Of a stretch of DNA of 64,000 nucleotides, positions 12,548 to 39,797 are shown in pieces. The DNA is from Desmonostoc muscorum FACHB-395 (GTDB lineage Bacteria > Cyanobacteriota > Cyanobacteriia > Cyanobacteriales > Nostocaceae), in assembly GCF_014698035.1 (NCBI RefSeq), contig NZ_JACJSF010000008.1:62001-126000 (forward strand), read 5' to 3'. Both the position numbers and the translations under genes were made by a program. The notes beneath the pieces are model-generated. The model searched no databases. It was not told the DNA's origin and saw only the letters and a list, made by a program, of their open reading frames with translations. Numbering within the stretch: position 1 is the stretch's first letter; the number at the start of each line of letters is the position of its first letter.

Positions 12548-12749
12548 GTTGTTAATTGTTTGGCATTTTGACATTAAATTATAATTAAGCTGTGATATAT
12601 TAGCTAGAATGCAAATGATTGAAACATTAAGAATAAGCTCAACTAGCATTCTTTTTGTTCATATTATTTGTTTGTCTTACAACCTATTAAGTTTTATTTG
12701 TGCTGTTTTTTGCATATTCCAAGGTGTATTGCCACTTTCAAGCTATTTA

Positions 12750-12775
12750 GACGGGATAATTTATCCCGTCTTTTA
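12750..12775 (+). terminator. Intrinsic terminator 2 of the array
   Basis: GACGGGATAA and TTATCCCGTC (12750-12770) pair almost without a loop, followed by TTTTATTTTG. It shares the GACGGG/CCCGTC stem with terminator 1, about 225 bases upstream. Confidence 0.75.
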
Positions 12776-12903: not shown

Positions 12904-13042
12904 TATTTGAGGTATTCAATGATACTAGGAAAATATCCTATCAGGTTTGAGGATATTTGCACACATCCTATAGGAAGATGCCCTATGAATATAATAATGA
13001 GTAAATTAATTCGGGATGTTGTTATGCACTGGATTTATATAG

Positions 13043-13071
13043 AGGTTTGGCTCACCGCCAAACCTTTTTTT
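13043..13071 (+). terminator. Intrinsic terminator 4 of the array
   Basis: AGGTTTGGC (13043-13051) and GCCAAACCT (13057-13065) form a perfect stem with a TCACC loop followed by seven T residues. The porin gene beyond it is on the other strand and ends at 13175. Confidence 0.85.
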
Positions 13072-18475: not shown

Positions 18476-19567
18476 GTGACTTTGAGCCTTTCTGTTGCTA
18501 AATCTCATCGCCAACCCTGGCCCGGACTGATAGAAGCCTATCGCCAATACTTGCCTGTCAGTGAAAAAACCCCGGTCGTCACTCTTTTGGAAGGCAATAC
18601 ACCTCTAATACCAGTGCCAGCGATCGCAGAACGTATTGGCAGACAAGTACGGGTTTTTGTAAAATATGATGGTCTGAATCCTACCGGTAGCTTCAAAGAC
18701 CGGGGGATGACTATGGCAATTTCCAAGGCCAAGGAAGCAGGAGCAAAAGCAGTAATTTGTGCCAGCACGGGTAACACCTCAGCCGCCGCCGCCGCTTATG
18801 CAAGGCGTGGGGGGATGAATGCCTTTGTATTAATTCCCGACGGTTATGTAGCGCTGGGCAAGTTAGCCCAAGCATTACTGTATGGTGCAGAAGTATTGGC
18901 AATTAAAGGGAATTTTGACCAAGCGCTAGAAATTGTCCGCGAAATGGCCGAAAGCTATCCGGTAACTTTGGTAAATTCGGTCAATCCATACCGCCTAGAA
19001 GGGCAAAAAACTGGAGCCTTTGAAATCGTCGATGCGCTGGGTGATGCCCCAGACTGGCTGTGTATCCCCGTAGGCAATGCGGGAAATATCACAGCATATT
19101 GGATGGGCTTTTGTCAATATCATCAAGATGGAAAGTGCGATCGCTTACCTCGAATGATGGGATTCCAAGCCGCAGGTGCAGCTCCATTAGTACACGGTCA
19201 GCCCGTAGCGCATCCCGAAACCCTAGCGACAGCAATTCGCATTGGCAACCCTGCTAGCTGGGAATTAGCGATCGCAGCCCAAACCGCAAGTCAGGGAAAT
19301 TTCCATGCCGTTACCGATGCAGAAATTCTCGATGCTTATCGACTTTTAGCATCATCAGAAGGTATCTTCTGCGAACCTGCTAGCGCCGCTTCTGTAGCCG
19401 GATTATTGCAGGTAAAAGACCAAATTCCTACAGGCGCGACAGTGGTTTGTGTCCTCACAGGCAATGGTCTAAAAGACCCAGATACAGCCATTAAACACAA
19501 TCACAGTCAATTTAAACAGGGGATTGCAGCAGAATTGGGCGCAGTCGCCGAGGCAATGGGATTTTAA
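18476..19567 (+). CDS. thrC: Threonine synthase
   Basis: A PLP-dependent enzyme that converts O-phosphohomoserine to threonine and phosphate. The 363-residue chain is the short bacterial form. It starts at GTG, with [10 protein letters not shown] near residue 39, [11 protein letters not shown] with Lys74 as the PLP lysine, [16 protein letters not shown], the phosphate-binding [12 protein letters not shown], and the C-terminal [12 protein letters not shown]. All the usual active-site blocks are present. A second, longer ThrC-type gene with a zinc ribbon lies at 38384-39694. The gene appears monocistronic. With two paralogs, this one is the more conventional candidate for threonine synthesis. 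Confidence 0.93.
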
Positions 19568-32962: not shown

Positions 32963-35900
32963 ATGAGTAATCAGCAAGAGCCAGAAAATCTAGCCTTTGA
33001 CAATGAGCGTTCATTGCAAACTTTGGTGCGAGCAATTAACCTTTCTCAGGGAGAATTTTCACTGACTTTGCTGCGCTGTAACTATGCAGCTTTCCGTCAA
33101 GATATAGTACAACGTCTACACCAACTATCTCCTGTTAAAATCCGTGAAATCACCTTACCCGTGTCAGTGAAAACTCTTTACACGTCTATAGGTGAAAAAT
33201 TGGGAGATGAACAGCCATCAGCGTTAATGGTTTTTGGTTTGGAATCGGTTAAAGATATTGATACAGTTCTAACTTCAGCTAACCAAGTACGGGAGGAGTT
33301 TAGAAAAAACTTCCCGTTCCCAGTCATGTTACTGGTTAATGACCAAGTTCTGCAAAAGCTGATCAGATTAGCGACAGATTTTGAGAATTGGGCCACAATA
33401 ATTCATTTTGCGATCGCAAATGCTGATTTAGTTCAATTTATCAAACAAACTGCTGAATCAGTTTTTGCTCAAGTTTTAGATGCTGGCGCAGGAAAATTTC
33501 TCGATAATTCTGCAATCAACTTGGCAATCGGTTCGCCGCACCGCGTAGAACTTGAGTTAGCACAAGCTGAACTGCAAAAGCGGGGTGTGAAGTTAGACGC
33601 AGAACTAGAAGCCAGTTTAGAATTTGTTCTGGGTCGAGATGCGGTTTCGATGGAACAGTCACGCCAGCATTATGAACGCAGTCTCGCACTTTTGCAACAG
33701 AGTTCTAAACTAGAACAGCAAGGCTGTGTACTGTACAATTTGGGGTTATGGTGGCGTACCTACGCCGTGCAGCATTTAACGGAACAACAAAATGCTTGCT
33801 CGAACGCTAAAAATTATTATTACAAATGTCTCGAAATATTTGAGCAGGCGAATCGTCCTGACTTGGTAGCAAAATTTATCAACGCTTTGGGAGAAGTACT
33901 ACAAAAGCTTCAGCACTGGGATGAATTAGAAGCAGTTGCTCAAAAAGCTTTAACTCTATATCAAACTTATCCTGATTGGTTTAGAAAAGCAAGAGCTTAT
34001 GGATTTATCGCCGAAGTAGCACTTTCTCAGTCTGCTTGGGATAAAGCTAAACAAGCTGCCAAAAAAGCGCTTTCTATTGTAGCTAGTAACCAATCCATCC
34101 AATCGAAAGCTAATTTAGAATTGGTGCTATATTATCATCAAGGTTGGTATTTATTTGCACTAGCCAGAGCGCTACAGCAGCTTAAGAAGGTGGAAGATGC
34201 TTTAACTACCCTAGAAGCTGCAAGAAGAGAAACTAAACCTCAATACGATCCAGAGCTTTACATTCGGATTTTGGAGAGGTTACAAAGCATTTATTATCAA
34301 CAAGGTCAATATCTTGCAGCTTTTCAGATTAAGCAAGAGCTAATTAAAATTGAACATCAATATGGTTTTCGTGCTTTTATTGGGGCAGCTTATTTAATTC
34401 CTCGGCATGAGGTAATTAATCCGGCACTAGTGCAAGGAGAAAATCTCATAAAAGTTGCTCAAGAAATTGCTGTTTCTGGTCGGCAACAAGATGTTAATCG
34501 GTTGATGAAACGAATGAGCCGGACTGACAATAAATTGACTGTATTTCATGGTCAGTCAGGAGTAGGTAAAAGTTCAATTTTGAACGGGGGACTAGTACCA
34601 ACATTGCAACTACAATCAATAGATGCGCGTGATGTATTACCTATTGTCATGCGAGTTTATACAGATTGGATGGCGATATTGGCAAAGTGTTTAGCAGATA
34701 ATGGTACATCTAGTAATTCAATAGAATTTATCTGTGAAAGTTTGCGGAAAAAATCCGAGCGGAAGTTAACAGTTTTAATTTTTGACCAGTTTGAAGAGTT
34801 TTTCTTTGTTTACACAGATCAAAGTAAAAGACAGCAATTTTATAAGTTCTTGCAACTTTGTTTGGATATTCCTTATGTTAAGGTTATTCTCTGTTTGAGA
34901 GAAGATTATTTGCATTATTTATTAGAATGCGATCGCCTGCTGAATTTTAGAGCAATTAATAACAATATTTTAGATAAGGATATCCGTTATTATTTAGGAA
35001 ATTTCTCTTCAAAAGATGCCAAAGCTGTTGTCCAAAGTCTGACAGAACAAACCCACTTTTACTTAGAACCTGAGTTAATCGCTCAATTAGTAGAAGATTT
35101 ATCAGATGAACTTGGCGAGGTACGCCCGATTGAGTTACAAATCGTCGGTTCGCAACTTCAAACAGATAAAATTACAACTTTAGAACAATATCTTCAGTCA
35201 GGAACAAAAGAAAAACTAGTCGAGCGATTTTTAGAAGAAGTTATTAAAGACTGTGGTTCTGAAAACGAACTCTGTGCCAGAGTAGTTTTATATTTATTAA
35301 CAGACGAGAAAGGTACTCGTCCCTTCAAAACTTCTGACAATTTAGCGGAAGATTTAAAAACAGCAGATATTGTCTCAGAAAAAGAAAAACTAAATCTAGT
35401 TTTAGAGATTTTAGTTGGTTCGGGGCTGGTGTTAAATATTCCTGAAGACCCTGCTAACCTATATCAACTGGTTCATGACTATCTAGTTTCTTTTATCCGG
35501 CAGTCACAACAAGCAAGAAAATTAGAGGAACAGAAAAAGGAAAAGGAACAACGGCAACACGCTGAAGCAGAACTAAATCGTGTTCTTAAGCGACAACGCA
35601 ATGACGCAAAACGACAACGAAATTTTGCGATCGCAGGAGTCACTATAATGTCCATTCTGGCAGTTATAGCTGTAGGATTAGGAGTGCGGGCAGAATCTGA
35701 AAGGCAAAAAACAGAACAAGCTGAGACAATTGCCATTAGTAAAGCTTCAGAAGCCCTTTTTGCCTCAAATCAAAGGTTTGAAGCACTTAAACAAGCCATT
35801 AAAGCAGGTAAAAAACTCCAAGCTACAGACTGGGGAAAAACCGATTCTGAAATTCGTACCCAAGTTATAGCGGCATTACAACAATCAGTTTACTGGATAG

Positions 35901-37888
35901 TAGAGCGCGATCGCTTGGAAGGACACAAGGCTCTAATCTGGGGTGTAACTTTCTCCCATAATGGTAAGTTGATTGCCTCAACTAGTTATGACCATACTAT
36001 AAAACTCTGGAATCTAGATGGTAGCGTGTACAAGACGCTTGAAGGGCATCAAGATAAAGTCTTAGGTTTGAGTTTCTCACCTGACGATCAAACAATTGTC
36101 TCAGGCGATTTCCAGGGCATCATAAAATTTTGGAAGCGGGACGGGACTTTATTAAAAACCCTACCAGCATATCAAGATGGAGTAAATAGTGGCGAAAATA
36201 AGGGAGTTTATAGTATCGATTTCTCACCAGATGGTAAGACAATTGCTACAGGAAGTCGGGACAGTACACTAAAACTCTGGAAGCCAGATGGCACTTTATT
36301 AAAAACGATTAAAGCGCATCAAGATGGAGTCAATAGTGTGGCTTTCTCCCCCGACGGTAAGATGATTGCGACTGGTGGCCGGGACAAAACTGTGAAACTC
36401 TGGACATCCAATGGTAAGCTTTTGCACACTACAGAAGGCTATGACGACTTTGTTTGGGATGTTGCTTGGTCAAGCGATAGCCAGACAATTGCGGCGGCGG
36501 CTGGTGGTGCTGCTGCGACTGGTAACGACAACAGAGTAAAACTCTGGAATCGAGACGGCACTCCTTTAAAAAATTTTAAAGCACATAAAGATGGAATCAA
36601 TAGTGTGGCTTTCTCACCCGACGGTAAGATGATTGCTACAGCTAGTGACGACAAGACTGTAAAGCTTTGGAAGCCTGACGGTACTTTACTCACAACTTTA
36701 TCAGGACATAGCAATGGAGTTTATGCTGTCAGGTTTTCACCTGACTGTAAAATCCTAATTTCTGCCAGTGCTGACGGTACGATGAAACTTTGGCAAGTTG
36801 GTAATACCAGTTGCTTACACAACGCCCAAATTCCTACTTCTCCTAGCGCTGACAGCACAATGAAGATTCAGTATGGTAGTGGTGTGGTAAGTATTCTCAA
36901 CGGTCATAGCGATCGCGTTAATCAGGTAGATTTCTCACCTGATGACAAAATAATTGCCTCAGCCAGCCGTGACAAGACAGTGAAACTCTGGAAGCGCGAT
37001 GGTACTTTAGAAAAAACTCTTGAGGGGCATAGCGATAACGTTAGTTTCTCACCTGATGGTCAGACAATTGCTACCGCTAGTGATGATAACACAGTGGAAC
37101 TCTGGAACCGTGACGGTAAATTACTGAGAACCCTTTTTCCAAAAAGCGATAAAATATTAGACTTGAATTTCTCACCCAACGGTCAGTTTATCGCCTTGGG
37201 TAGTATGGACAACAAAGTAATAATATCGCGGCTTGATGGCATCAAACCTCAGATTCTCAACAAGCATCAGGACTGGGTAAGGGCTGTAGCTTGGTCGCCA
37301 AACGGTCAGATGCTTGCCTCAGCTAGTGATGACAACACGGTAAAACTTTGGAAGCAAAACAATAAGGGCGAGTTTCACATCTACAAGACTCTCGCAGGGA
37401 AAAACGGCCATAACAGTTGGGTTTTGAGCGTTAAGTTCTCACCTAGTGGCGATATGATTGCCACTAGTAGTAATGACAAGACGGTAATACTTTGGAAGCA
37501 GGACGACAAGGGCGAGTTTCGCTGGTACAAAAAATTGCAGGGGCATACCGATCAGGTGAATAGCGTGAATTTTTCACCTGACGGTAAGATGATTGCAACA
37601 GCCAGTGATGATAAGACTGTAAAACTTTGGACACGCGACGGTCATTTAGTGAGAACTCTAACTGGGCACAGCGATCATTTATTAAGCGCGAATTTCTCAG
37701 CCGATGGTAAAACTCTGGCTTTGGGCAGTGCTGATGGGGCTATAATTCTCTGGAATTTGGATGAGCTAAATCATCTCAAGAATCTAGATAGCTTACTGGA
37801 GCGTGGTTGTGATTGGCTGTATGACTATCTAAAGAATAACCCGAATGTCAGTAAGAGCGATCGCCATCTCTGCGACGATATCAAGTAA
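32963..37888 (+). CDS. STAND NTPase with TPR-like region, transmembrane segment and 14 WD40 repeats
   Basis: A 1641-residue signalling-type protein. Residues 1-170 form an alpha/beta domain resembling a degenerate nucleotide-binding fold (LTLLRCNYAAFRQDIVQRL). About 235-470 are TPR-like helices. The STAND ATPase follows with Walker A GQSGVGKSS (530-538) and Walker B LIFDQFEEF (Asp608). A charged coiled coil (about 855-885) precedes one transmembrane segment (about 887-910: VTIMSILAVIAVGLGV). Fourteen WD40 repeats (about 985-1602) then end mostly in TVKLW or similar, enough for two seven-bladed propellers. Such proteins act as ligand-sensing switches. The order with a P-loop ATPase gene upstream suggests a two-component unit; its biological role is unknown. 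Confidence 0.9.
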   Translation: MSNQQEPENLAFDNERSLQTLVRAINLSQGEFSLTLLRCNYAAFRQDIVQRLHQLSPVKIREITLPVSVKTLYTSIGEKLGDEQPSALMVFGLESVKDIDTVLTSANQVREEFRKNFPFPVMLLVNDQVLQKLIRLATDFENWATIIHFAIANADLVQFIKQTAESVFAQVLDAGAGKFLDNSAINLAIGSPHRVELELAQAELQKRGVKLDAELEASLEFVLGRDAVSMEQSRQHYERSLALLQQSSKLEQQGCVLYNLGLWWRTYAVQHLTEQQNACSNAKNYYYKCLEIFEQANRPDLVAKFINALGEVLQKLQHWDELEAVAQKALTLYQTYPDWFRKARAYGFIAEVALSQSAWDKAKQAAKKALSIVASNQSIQSKANLELVLYYHQGWYLFALARALQQLKKVEDALTTLEAARRETKPQYDPELYIRILERLQSIYYQQGQYLAAFQIKQELIKIEHQYGFRAFIGAAYLIPRHEVINPALVQGENLIKVAQEIAVSGRQQDVNRLMKRMSRTDNKLTVFHGQSGVGKSSILNGGLVPTLQLQSIDARDVLPIVMRVYTDWMAILAKCLADNGTSSNSIEFICESLRKKSERKLTVLIFDQFEEFFFVYTDQSKRQQFYKFLQLCLDIPYVKVILCLREDYLHYLLECDRLLNFRAINNNILDKDIRYYLGNFSSKDAKAVVQSLTEQTHFYLEPELIAQLVEDLSDELGEVRPIELQIVGSQLQTDKITTLEQYLQSGTKEKLVERFLEEVIKDCGSENELCARVVLYLLTDEKGTRPFKTSDNLAEDLKTADIVSEKEKLNLVLEILVGSGLVLNIPEDPANLYQLVHDYLVSFIRQSQQARKLEEQKKEKEQRQHAEAELNRVLKRQRNDAKRQRNFAIAGVTIMSILAVIAVGLGVRAESERQKTEQAETIAISKASEALFASNQRFEALKQAIKAGKKLQATDWGKTDSEIRTQVIAALQQSVYWIVERDRLEGHKALIWGVTFSHNGKLIASTSYDHTIKLWNLDGSVYKTLEGHQDKVLGLSFSPDDQTIVSGDFQGIIKFWKRDGTLLKTLPAYQDGVNSGENKGVYSIDFSPDGKTIATGSRDSTLKLWKPDGTLLKTIKAHQDGVNSVAFSPDGKMIATGGRDKTVKLWTSNGKLLHTTEGYDDFVWDVAWSSDSQTIAAAAGGAAATGNDNRVKLWNRDGTPLKNFKAHKDGINSVAFSPDGKMIATASDDKTVKLWKPDGTLLTTLSGHSNGVYAVRFSPDCKILISASADGTMKLWQVGNTSCLHNAQIPTSPSADSTMKIQYGSGVVSILNGHSDRVNQVDFSPDDKIIASASRDKTVKLWKRDGTLEKTLEGHSDNVSFSPDGQTIATASDDNTVELWNRDGKLLRTLFPKSDKILDLNFSPNGQFIALGSMDNKVIISRLDGIKPQILNKHQDWVRAVAWSPNGQMLASASDDNTVKLWKQNNKGEFHIYKTLAGKNGHNSWVLSVKFSPSGDMIATSSNDKTVILWKQDDKGEFRWYKKLQGHTDQVNSVNFSPDGKMIATASDDKTVKLWTRDGHLVRTLTGHSDHLLSANFSADGKTLALGSADGAIILWNLDELNHLKNLDSLLERGCDWLYDYLKNNPNVSKSDRHLCDDIK

Positions 37889-38027: not shown

Positions 38028-38303
38028 TTAACCACCAGCAACAGCAGGGACAATACTTACTTCATCGCCATCTTTTAGGGCTGTGTTAATACCATCTAAA
38101 TAGCGGATATCTTCACTATCAACGTAAAAATTTACAAATCGACGTAGCTTGCCTTCGTCATCGCACAACCGGGATTTAATCCCAGGAAAGCTTTGTTCTA
38201 AAGAATCCAACAATTCAGCAATGGTGCTACCGTTGGATTCTAGAGTAGCTTGATTATTAGTCAAATTCTGAAGAGTCGTAGGAACTAAAACTGTTACAGC
38301 CAT
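38028..38303 (-). CDS. cysO: CysO-like ubiquitin-fold sulfur carrier protein
   Basis: A 91-residue MoaD/ThiS-superfamily protein ending in the free C-terminal Gly-Gly (SIVPAVAGG) that is adenylated and turned into a thiocarboxylate. The segments [16 protein letters not shown] and [17 protein letters not shown] resemble Mycobacterium tuberculosis CysO (recalled, not searched), which donates sulfur to O-phosphoserine through the PLP enzyme CysM. Here the gene follows a ThrC-type PLP enzyme 80 bases upstream on the same strand, with no moa or thi gene nearby. That context argues against a plain molybdopterin or thiamine role and for sulfur transfer to an amino-acid precursor. The activating enzyme and any Mec+-type protease are not in the window. 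Confidence 0.82.
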
Positions 38304-38340
38304 AAAAGTACAAAGTGAAGAGTTAGGAATACAGTTAAGA

Positions 38341-38377
38341 GTTAGGAGTCATGAATCAAAAACTCATAACTCCTAAC
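38341..38377. promoter_or_regulatory. Hairpin in the thrC-cysO intergenic gap
   Basis: GTTAGGAGT (38341-38349) and ACTCCTAAC (38369-38377) pair perfectly, extended inward by a mostly matched ATGA/TCAT pair. It fills much of the 80-base gap between the two genes and could tune the ratio of the two products, or be a dispersed repeat. Confidence 0.5.
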
Positions 38378-38383
38378 TGCTAA

Positions 38384-39694
38384 CTAAACGAGAACTTGTT
38401 GCCATTCCAAGCGATCGAGAGTACGCGATCGCTCTAGGGCGCGTTCAAAACTATCCAGTTTAGCATCAATAGTCAAGGGTTCACCAACATAGCCTTGGAT
38501 TGCTTCTTGGGTTTTTAGACCATTGCCGGTGATGTAAATCACGGTAGTTTCATCTGGATCAATTTTGCCAGCTTCTACCAGTTTTTTCAGCACGGCCACG
38601 GTTGTACCACCAGCCGTTTCTGTGAAGATGCCTTCGGTTTCTGCCAGCAACTTGATGCCATCAATAATTTCTGCATCATTGACTGATTCAATGTTACCAC
38701 CAGTTTTCTGAGCTAACTCCACAGCATAAATACCGTCTGCTGGATTACCGATCGCTAGCGATTTCGCAATTGTATTTGGTTTAACTGGTTTAATAAAGTC
38801 GCGTCCTTCTTTGAAAGCTTGGGCAATTGGTGAACAACCTTCTGCTTGAGCGCCACTGAAACGGACTTTCTTGTCTTCTACTAAACCAACTTCGATAAAT
38901 TCTTGGAAACCCTTATAAATTTTTGTAAACAGCGAACCAGATGCCAAAGGAGCAACAACATGATCGGGTAGTTCCCAGCCTAGTTGTTCAGCAACTTCAA
39001 AACCTAACGTTTTGGAACCTTCAGAGTAATAAGGGCGCAGATTAATATTGACAAAACCCCAACCATGTGTATTGGCAACTTCCGAACAGAGACGGTTTAC
39101 TTGATCGTAGTTACCCTTGACGGCCATCAGCGTTGGGCTGTAAATCAAGCTACCAATAATTTTACCGGCTTCTAAATCTGCGGGGATAAACACACAGCAG
39201 TCTAAACCGGCATGAGCTGCGATCGCAGCTGTAGAATTTGCCAAGTTACCAGTGCTAGCGCAAGAAACGGTAGTGAAACCCAACTCTCGTGCCCTTGATA
39301 GAGCAACTGATACTACCCGATCCTTAAAGCTAAGGGTGGGCATATTAACCGCATCATTTTTTATATAAAGCTTATTTAGACCCAGGCGACGGGCAAGACG
39401 GTGAGAACGAACCAAGGGAGTCATCCCCGTTCCCACATCAATAACATTGTCAGTTGCAACAGGCAAAAAGGGACGGTAGCGCCAAATTGAATTGGGCCCG
39501 GCTTGAATTGTTTCACGAGTGACATTCAGACGGAGAGCGTTGTAGTCATACTTGACTTCTAAAGGCCCAAAACATAACTCACAAACATTACTGGCTTTGA
39601 GTTCATATTCGGCACCACACTCTTTACACTTTAAAGCTTGAAAGTAGGCAGTGCTGGTTTGGGTTTGGGTTTGGGTTTTGATTGCCTGAGTCAT
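38384..39694 (-). CDS. thrC: Threonine synthase paralog with N-terminal zinc ribbon
   Basis: A 436-residue PLP enzyme of the long ThrC type. Residues 20-50 form a zinc ribbon (Cys23, Cys26, Cys38, Cys41 in LKCKECG... NVCELCFGP). The PLP lysine is Lys124 in PTLSFKDRVVSVALSRA, followed by CASTGNLANSTAAIAAHAG, the phosphate-binding PLASGSLFTKIYKGF and the C-terminal VIYITGNGLKTQEA. It would use O-phosphohomoserine as substrate. A second, conventional ThrC is at 18476-19567. It is followed by a CysO-like sulfur carrier gene, so an alternative role in sulfur transfer to O-phosphohomoserine (homocysteine formation) is possible. A strong hairpin (39750-39797) lies upstream. Confidence 0.88.
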   Translation of the reverse strand: MTQAIKTQTQTQTSTAYFQALKCKECGAEYELKASNVCELCFGPLEVKYDYNALRLNVTRETIQAGPNSIWRYRPFLPVATDNVIDVGTGMTPLVRSHRLARRLGLNKLYIKNDAVNMPTLSFKDRVVSVALSRARELGFTTVSCASTGNLANSTAAIAAHAGLDCCVFIPADLEAGKIIGSLIYSPTLMAVKGNYDQVNRLCSEVANTHGWGFVNINLRPYYSEGSKTLGFEVAEQLGWELPDHVVAPLASGSLFTKIYKGFQEFIEVGLVEDKKVRFSGAQAEGCSPIAQAFKEGRDFIKPVKPNTIAKSLAIGNPADGIYAVELAQKTGGNIESVNDAEIIDGIKLLAETEGIFTETAGGTTVAVLKKLVEAGKIDPDETTVIYITGNGLKTQEAIQGYVGEPLTIDAKLDSFERALERSRTLDRLEWQQVLV

Positions 39695-39749
39695 AAACTA
39701 GCTTTCCCTGTTTGTCTGTCACTGTCGCCTGATAGTAACACGAGTAAAA

Positions 39750-39797
39750 ATACCAGTCAAACATACCCGACCTTTTTAGTCGGGTATCCCTGGTATT
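39750..39797 (-). promoter_or_regulatory. Two-tier hairpin in the thrC paralog leader
   Basis: An inner perfect stem, ATACCCGAC (39763-39771) with GTCGGGTAT (39779-39787), sits inside an outer pair, AATACCAG (39750-39757) with CTGGTATT (39790-39797). It lies 55-100 bases upstream of the ATG on the minus strand. It could be an attenuator, an operator or the terminator of an upstream transcript. No known riboswitch class was recognised. Confidence 0.5.

Follow-up and report, generated by a model that had tools for sequence, protein, structure and literature searches.

The question raised by the locus described here is what a second gene of the threonine synthase family may be doing beside the gene for a sulfur-carrier protein, in a cyanobacterial genome that also possesses an ordinary thrC. 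The window, that is the whole stretch of DNA analysed, consists of 64,000 nucleotides from Desmonostoc muscorum FACHB-395 (Nostocaceae). A first-pass annotation, made from the letters alone, had described a zinc-ribbon ThrC paralog followed 80 bases later by a 91-residue carrier ending in Gly-Gly, as well as a second, conventional thrC beginning at 18476, and all three genes are indeed present as open reading frames:

38384..39694, minus strand: metM-like gene, encoding a PLP enzyme of 436 aa of the threonine synthase family, with an N-terminal zinc ribbon (open reading frame, profile matches, clade with a Nonomuraea homologue)
38028..38303, minus strand: metO-like gene, encoding a CysO/MoaD-type sulfur carrier of 91 aa with a free C-terminal Gly-Gly (open reading frame; Pfam, NCBIfam and PDB matches)
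18476..19567, plus strand: canonical thrC, 363 aa, the ordinary threonine synthase of the genome (TIGR00260, 340 bits)

The first two genes are on the same strand, with metO downstream of metM and 80 bp between them. MetM carries a CxxC...CxxC ribbon at its N-terminus, belongs to the PLP fold family PF00291 and scores 337 bits against TIGR00260 (thrC), whose cut-off is 167. MetO matches Pfam ThiS with 67.7 bits and ends in ...PAVAGG followed by the stop codon. Its best PDB matches, both full length, are 4n6e_B, a ThiS/MoaD protein (E 4.9e-23) whose source we take to be Amycolatopsis, and 3dwg_C (E 6e-22), listed as the 9.5 kDa antigen cfp10A and presumably the CysO of Mycobacterium tuberculosis, in line with the kinship to CysO proposed at first. 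The NCBIfam labels are thrC for the enzyme and small modifier protein SAMP1 for the carrier, so that current family models name MetM a threonine synthase. The idea that the carrier might be the only MoaD or ThiS of the genome does not hold, as three ThiS-family proteins are encoded: MetO, a ThiS whose gene follows a ThiE-like one, and a protein of the MoaD type. Two proteins of the genome match the ThrC profile above the cut-off, and six more match it less well. As had been noted, no moa or thi gene lies near the pair among the 19 further open reading frames scanned (nine, plus ten at E 1e-20 only) of the 45 of at least 110 aa. The median dN/dS of MetO is 0.144 (NG86; of 36 coding sequences, 30 could be used). 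The closest named relatives of the locus, among the best 80 of 586, are from Nostoc (99% identity to Nostoc desertorum); one scan with a single protein as the query returned no viral relatives. The predicted structure of MetM is poor (mean pLDDT 62.6, from a 14-row alignment) and is not used in our conclusions. Elsewhere in the window, positions 32963-37888 encode an nSTAND1 NTPase of 1641 aa that carries WD40 repeats at its C-terminus and whose gene is transcribed toward the metM-metO pair, and two cyanobacterial small RNAs, NsiR8 and a member of a heterocyst sRNA family, are found close together at 12597-12770 and 13013-13068.

Conservation of the adjacency, one of the checks proposed for the pair, was assessed in a sample of 292 genomes of the phylum, of which 139 belong to the class of the window, with MetM homologues called at an identity of at least 76%, MetO at E up to 1e-8, and with at most five candidates per genome scored for MetM and six each for MetX and PF01053. 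MetM homologues are present in 108 of the 292 genomes, all within the class sample, and the next matches are at most 42% identical, among the matches listed. Every one of these 108 also encodes MetO, for which a single weak match turned up elsewhere; the MetO gene lies next to and downstream of that of MetM, in the same orientation, in 102 (gap of 10-671 bp, median 106) and apart from it in the remaining six. The named loci, which are the best 80 of the 586 relatives and are all cyanobacterial, give the same picture, with the adjacency seen in 79 and just 159 bp remaining downstream in the 80th; 78 of the 79 aligned carriers have Gly-Gly before the stop, and the alignment of the last one stops short. 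Such an arrangement is beyond chance, and the conserved linkage implies a selected function. Among 22 loci examined for their surroundings MetO is present in 18; in a neighbour count based on the longest open reading frames it is itself counted in 13, one further family is shared by five (in the example seen, an open reading frame antisense to MetO), and others by at most four. For five zinc-ribbon ThrC genes from outside (three from haloarchaea, one each from Chloroflexota and Priestia), no carrier is annotated as a neighbour in the gene tables, which are incomplete.

In the 2024 work of Hasebe and colleagues on Streptomyces albulus, a ThrC-like enzyme, MetM, reportedly works with a thiocarboxylated carrier, MetO. 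A later paper credits Hasebe and colleagues with finding MetM as a homocysteine synthase of Streptomyces that has cyanobacterial homologues, and reports that the 'ThrC' of Microcystis is 51.6% identical to MetM and its adjoining gene metO-like (47%; PMC12172450). We consider that the pair in the window is the cyanobacterial version of MetM-MetO, a proposed homocysteine synthase with its sulfur carrier, and would put the probability of this at roughly 80%; the assignment is well supported by comparison, and the function in cyanobacteria is a prediction. The suggestion made at the outset, that the carrier might deliver sulfur to O-phosphohomoserine on a ThrC scaffold to give homocysteine, gains support from these comparisons and would be the very reaction published for the S. 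albulus proteins, so that the pair would belong to a known system and the idea is not new. The reading starts from the gene pair itself, its conservation and co-occurrence, its homology to an operon with a SAM riboswitch, the divergence of MetM from ThrC, and a palindrome upstream. We have weighed against it the DUF39/NIL proteins, MetY-MetX, the activities of the Microcystis enzyme, the gaps in JAB occurrence, the lack of a SAM riboswitch, the divergence shared with other zinc-ribbon ThrC proteins and the long branch of the Nonomuraea homologue, all presented below.

As we envisage the pathway, an E1-like MoeB-rhodanese protein would adenylate the C-terminal Gly-Gly of MetO and install the thiocarboxylate; MetM would bind O-phosphohomoserine supplied by the threonine pathway and eliminate its gamma-phosphate on PLP; the thiocarboxylate of MetO would then attack C-gamma, in place of the attack of water at C-beta; and homocysteine would be freed from MetO through hydrolysis or by a JAB peptidase, to be methylated to methionine. 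Transcription of metM would start at a promoter beside the conserved palindrome. We infer all of this chemistry from the Streptomyces work and from the CysO-CysM precedent, as we infer the regulation of metM.

A link of these genes to methionine is suggested by an actinobacterial homologue. The best relative of MetM in the plasmid collection, at 54.8% identity, belongs to a Nonomuraea record, in which a SAM riboswitch (68.7 bits) is followed by the MetM homologue (55%) and then directly by MetO (44%), an operon that would tie MetM-MetO homologues to methionine; the actinobacterial evidence consists of this one record. In the window, no SAM riboswitch is detected at the Rfam threshold. In a tree with 26 of the 48 MetM rows, 14 of the 20 canonical ThrC rows and six other zinc-ribbon rows, the MetM proteins, including the Nonomuraea homologue, form one clade with a support of 100/100; the Nonomuraea row sits on a long branch, a situation of which the tree tool warns.

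MetM scores above the curated thrC cut-off; the conserved motifs of the canonical enzyme are replaced in it. When 48 MetM rows are compared with 20 rows of canonical ThrC, 69 alignment columns are near-fixed for different states (thresholds of 95% and 90%), 19 of these setting a residue against a gap, and the motifs GNAGN, STGNTS and NPYRxEGQKT of the canonical enzyme become ASGS, STGNLA and RPYYxEGSKT, respectively, in MetM. In the other zinc-ribbon ThrC proteins (six rows), too, many of the 69 columns deviate from the canonical motifs, so part of the divergence is not special to MetM; states absent from these proteins are found in MetM at, for example, A251, R220, Y223, S227, K258 and T360. 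Such motif residues in ThrC hold the cofactor and substrate phosphates, and the released phosphate helps the addition of water; their loss would be consistent with sulfur attacking C-gamma instead. In two of eight aligned MetM proteins (L071 and L082) most of the cysteines of the zinc ribbon are lost.

As to the activation of the carrier, a candidate was found for the E1-like enzyme that the first-pass annotation had proposed to look for elsewhere: the window's own genome encodes a JAB peptidase and, 142 bp further on, a MoeB-type adenylyltransferase with a rhodanese domain, the latter being the expected E1 and the former a possible release enzyme. A JAB peptidase is present in 39 of 49 tested pair-bearing genomes versus 19 of 31 without the pair, so that its presence does not strictly follow that of the pair, and a strict need for it is unsupported. 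In one genome (G177:C1:2170191-2171183) the gene for a second MetO-like carrier, 42% identical, follows that of a JAB peptidase at a distance of about 330 bp.

Two other readings give the pair a different role. In one, MetM is an additional threonine synthase that moonlights as a threonine deaminase, and the carrier does something else; the score of 337 bits, well over the thrC cut-off, speaks for it, as does the biochemistry of the Microcystis orthologue, which is reported to make threonine from O-phosphohomoserine (OPHS; Km 4.416 uM, Vmax 0.01762 umol/mg/min) and to convert threonine to ketobutyrate, a deaminase activity, and which, in the view of that paper, does not completely fill the role of MetM inside the cell (PMC12172450). 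The sulfur source in that assay was Na2S, not the thiocarboxylate of MetO, and the published result thus does not decide the matter; an unidentified HPLC peak near methionine was noted both with and without Na2S (PMC12172450). In favor of a MetM role, the Microcystis thrC and its metO-like neighbour are reported to go up jointly under threonine, with methionine relieving the toxicity (PMC12172450). We hold the threonine synthase reading to be unlikely: the genome has its canonical thrC, which makes two proteins over the cut-off; the reported Vmax looks low, in our judgement; the canonical motifs are replaced; the Nonomuraea homologue stands behind a SAM riboswitch; and the carrier is conserved alongside in 102 of the 108 genomes. 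In the other reading, MetO supplies sulfur to an enzyme of the CysM type or for the sulfuration of tRNA or a cofactor, its linkage to MetM reflecting co-regulation only. The nearest solved carriers, CysO and the presumed Amycolatopsis protein, would be in agreement with such a role, the JAB and MoeB-rhodanese proteins could serve several carriers, and the six weaker ThrC-profile matches may include cysteine synthases. However, the two proteins occur together throughout the 108 genomes, even in the six in which the genes are not adjacent, and the adjacency recurs in Nonomuraea, making this reading, to our minds, less probable still.

If the pair is indeed MetM-MetO, it should be considered together with the other ways of making homocysteine. 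Synechocystis PCC 6803 reportedly lacks MetA/B/C. A review of Synechocystis metabolism from 2020 describes the steps before MetH, and even the starting substrate of methionine synthesis, as undetermined (PMC7133116). Of the 108 pair-bearing genomes, MetX is found in 29 (three of the matches partial), MetA in one and a PF01053 enzyme in 35, and 71 have none of the three. The first-pass annotation had proposed to check whether such genomes lack routes of the metA/metX/metB type. They do not lack every other route: in this Nostoc itself, MetY and MetX adjoin each other about 42 kb past the right end of the window (this MetX scores 438.6, below the TIGR01392 cut-off of 500 and above that of NF001209), and the proteins of another route are widespread. 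DUF39 (HcyBio) is encoded in 107 of the 108 pair-bearing genomes. NIL proteins occur in each of the 49 pair-bearing genomes tested for them, being composed of NIL plus two 4Fe-4S motifs in the five loci read. The class genomes without the pair number 31, namely 30 of one family (f25), whose genomes are mostly small and which we take to be the picocyanobacteria, and one further genome, G051. All 30 of the former have MetA plus a PF01053 enzyme, none has DUF39, and none of the 13 tested has NIL, while five pair-bearing genomes of the same family have no match for MetA or PF01053, one having a partial MetX. This swap, or parallel loss, may amount to a single event in one clade. The DUF39 proteins of these five genomes (L064; G175, G239, G270, G274) are strongly diverged, scoring 127-189 bits versus mostly about 470-515. 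G051 belongs to the window's own family (3.8 Mb, one contig) and has both DUF39 and NIL (L063, L210); no match was found in it for a MetM ortholog, MetO, MetX, MetA or PF01053. Another genome, G118, a draft of about 210 contigs, has the pair and NIL and no match for DUF39, MetX, MetA or PF01053.

With DUF39 in 107 of 108 genomes, NIL in 49 of 49 and MetY-MetX in this Nostoc, we reject the pair as the sole route to homocysteine, whose synthesis can be explained without it. The two gene sets suggest instead that two homocysteine routes probably coexist in pair-bearing cyanobacteria, and either may be enough on its own, to judge from G051 and, with the reservation that it is a draft, from G118. 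A possible reading, to which we would give somewhat less than an even chance and which is compatible with the pair being MetM-MetO, is that DUF39 with NIL/ferredoxin, starting from aspartate semialdehyde, is the main route, MetM-MetO being minor or condition-specific. It has in its favor the near-universal presence of DUF39 in pair-bearing genomes and its presence in G051, which has neither the pair nor MetX, MetA or PF01053, the two 4Fe-4S motifs of the NIL proteins in five loci, and the report that homocysteine synthesis in Desulfovibrio requires DUF39, NIL/ferredoxin and COG2122 proteins (PMC5764234). On the other hand, it is judged here on two of these three components, COG2122 being the third, G118 maintains the pair and NIL with no match for DUF39, MetX, MetA or PF01053 (in a draft assembly), and the conserved MetM-MetO linkage implies a function under selection. 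A literature search returned no paper, among the matches listed, that treats DUF39 and MetM together in cyanobacteria.

The region around metM offers a clue as to how MetM-MetO may be controlled:

39763..39787, no strand assigned: 25-bp palindrome ATACCCGAC-N7-GTCGGGTAT, proposed Rrf2/IscR-type operator of metM (motif scans)
39732..39760, minus strand: sigma-70-type promoter TTGACT-17-TACTAT upstream of metM (consensus match)
38304..38383, minus strand: gap between metM and metO, folding into a strong hairpin (-24.8 kcal/mol, z -5.3)

Two bases separate the palindrome from the promoter downstream of it. Promoter consensus matches as such were seven, versus 4.6 in shuffles. The complete layout, a half-site, 3 nt, TTGAC, a spacer and TANNNT, is present upstream of metM in 79 of the 80 named loci, and three controls (the reverse strand, the downstream region, and shuffles of two-base blocks) did not show it once; the one locus missing it, L152, has 258 bp before its match. 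This test is stronger than a looser palindrome scan, in which 98 of 100 loci, weak matches included, have a site with at most 4 of 14 mismatches versus 8.75 from plain shuffles. With at most one mismatch, the pattern occurs once in the own genome, at metM, and the reversed control pattern four times, which speaks against a wide regulon of the exact form and is not an enrichment. Such sites occur in six of 26 genomes, being exact at metM in G000, G068 and G251; G181 has a site with one mismatch at metM, and five further sites with one mismatch are located elsewhere than at metM; so few genomes match because the left half-site varies. A regulon shared with other homocysteine or sulfur-carrier loci was considered and rejected, since no further site above 12 bits was found at the own-genome DUF39, MetY-MetX, ThiS, MoaD and JAB/MoeB loci, the DUF39 loci of G051 and G181, or eight NIL loci of other genomes, a scan that left out the own NIL locus (L211). 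The gap hairpin is a ACTCCTAAC-type inverted repeat with no T tract right after the stem, and no terminator was called in 38304..38383.

The core of the metM palindrome is GAC-N7-GTC, and it fits 23 of the 25 positions of the IscR type-1 consensus, the next best site in the window fitting 19. The same core is described for the Rrf2 regulator RisR (PMC9973013), and Slr0846 of Synechocystis is listed as an uncharacterised IscR (PMC7058544). A regulator of the Rrf2/IscR type may thus act here, making the palindrome a possible control point of the MetM-MetO route. The observations can be brought together in a broader scenario, which we offer tentatively and consider rather doubtful as a whole: most cyanobacteria would maintain two dissimilar routes to homocysteine in parallel, MetM-MetO using O-phosphohomoserine and protein-bound sulfur and DUF39/NIL-ferredoxin using aspartate semialdehyde, an Rrf2-family regulator would switch MetM-MetO by way of an operator nearly private to it, leaving the choice of route to cysteine, Fe-S or redox state, and marine picocyanobacteria would have dropped both for MetA-MetY.

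Overall, what is most likely a gene pair already described in Streptomyces is found in nearly all sampled cyanobacteria outside one small-genome group, and with two concrete gene sets, MetM-MetO and DUF39/NIL, the question of how cyanobacteria make homocysteine becomes testable. Of the known systems, MetM-MetO of S. albulus is the one that the pair resembles in both members, a ThrC-family enzyme and a CysO-like carrier, the identities of 51.6% and 47% being those reported for the Microcystis proteins. It differs in its regulatory region, the window having a palindrome and a sigma-70-type promoter in place of a SAM riboswitch, which the Microcystis pair is also reported to lack (PMC12172450). 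Unlike the Streptomyces system as described, the Nostoc genome also has DUF39 and MetY-MetX. In the CysO-CysM-Mec+ system of M. tuberculosis, the carrier CysO supplies CysM, which acts on O-phosphoserine. The window shares with it a CysO-like carrier with a GG end (E 6e-22) and, in the genome, a JAB peptidase and an E1-rhodanese, whereas the adjacent PLP partner is of the ThrC family (TIGR00260) rather than a cysteine synthase, and the proposed acceptor is O-phosphohomoserine rather than O-phosphoserine. The HcyS/MetY route of Wolinella, in which the PLP enzyme MetY (PF01053) uses O-acetylhomoserine and sulfur from a protein thiocarboxylate, has in common with the pathway proposed here the source of the homocysteine sulfur, but the window enzyme belongs to PF00291, not PF01053. 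Finally, the canonical ThrC encoded at 18476-19567 shares with MetM the PLP family PF00291 and probably the substrate, while MetM is set apart by its zinc ribbon, its altered motifs, and the carrier gene that stands beside it in 102 of 108 genomes.
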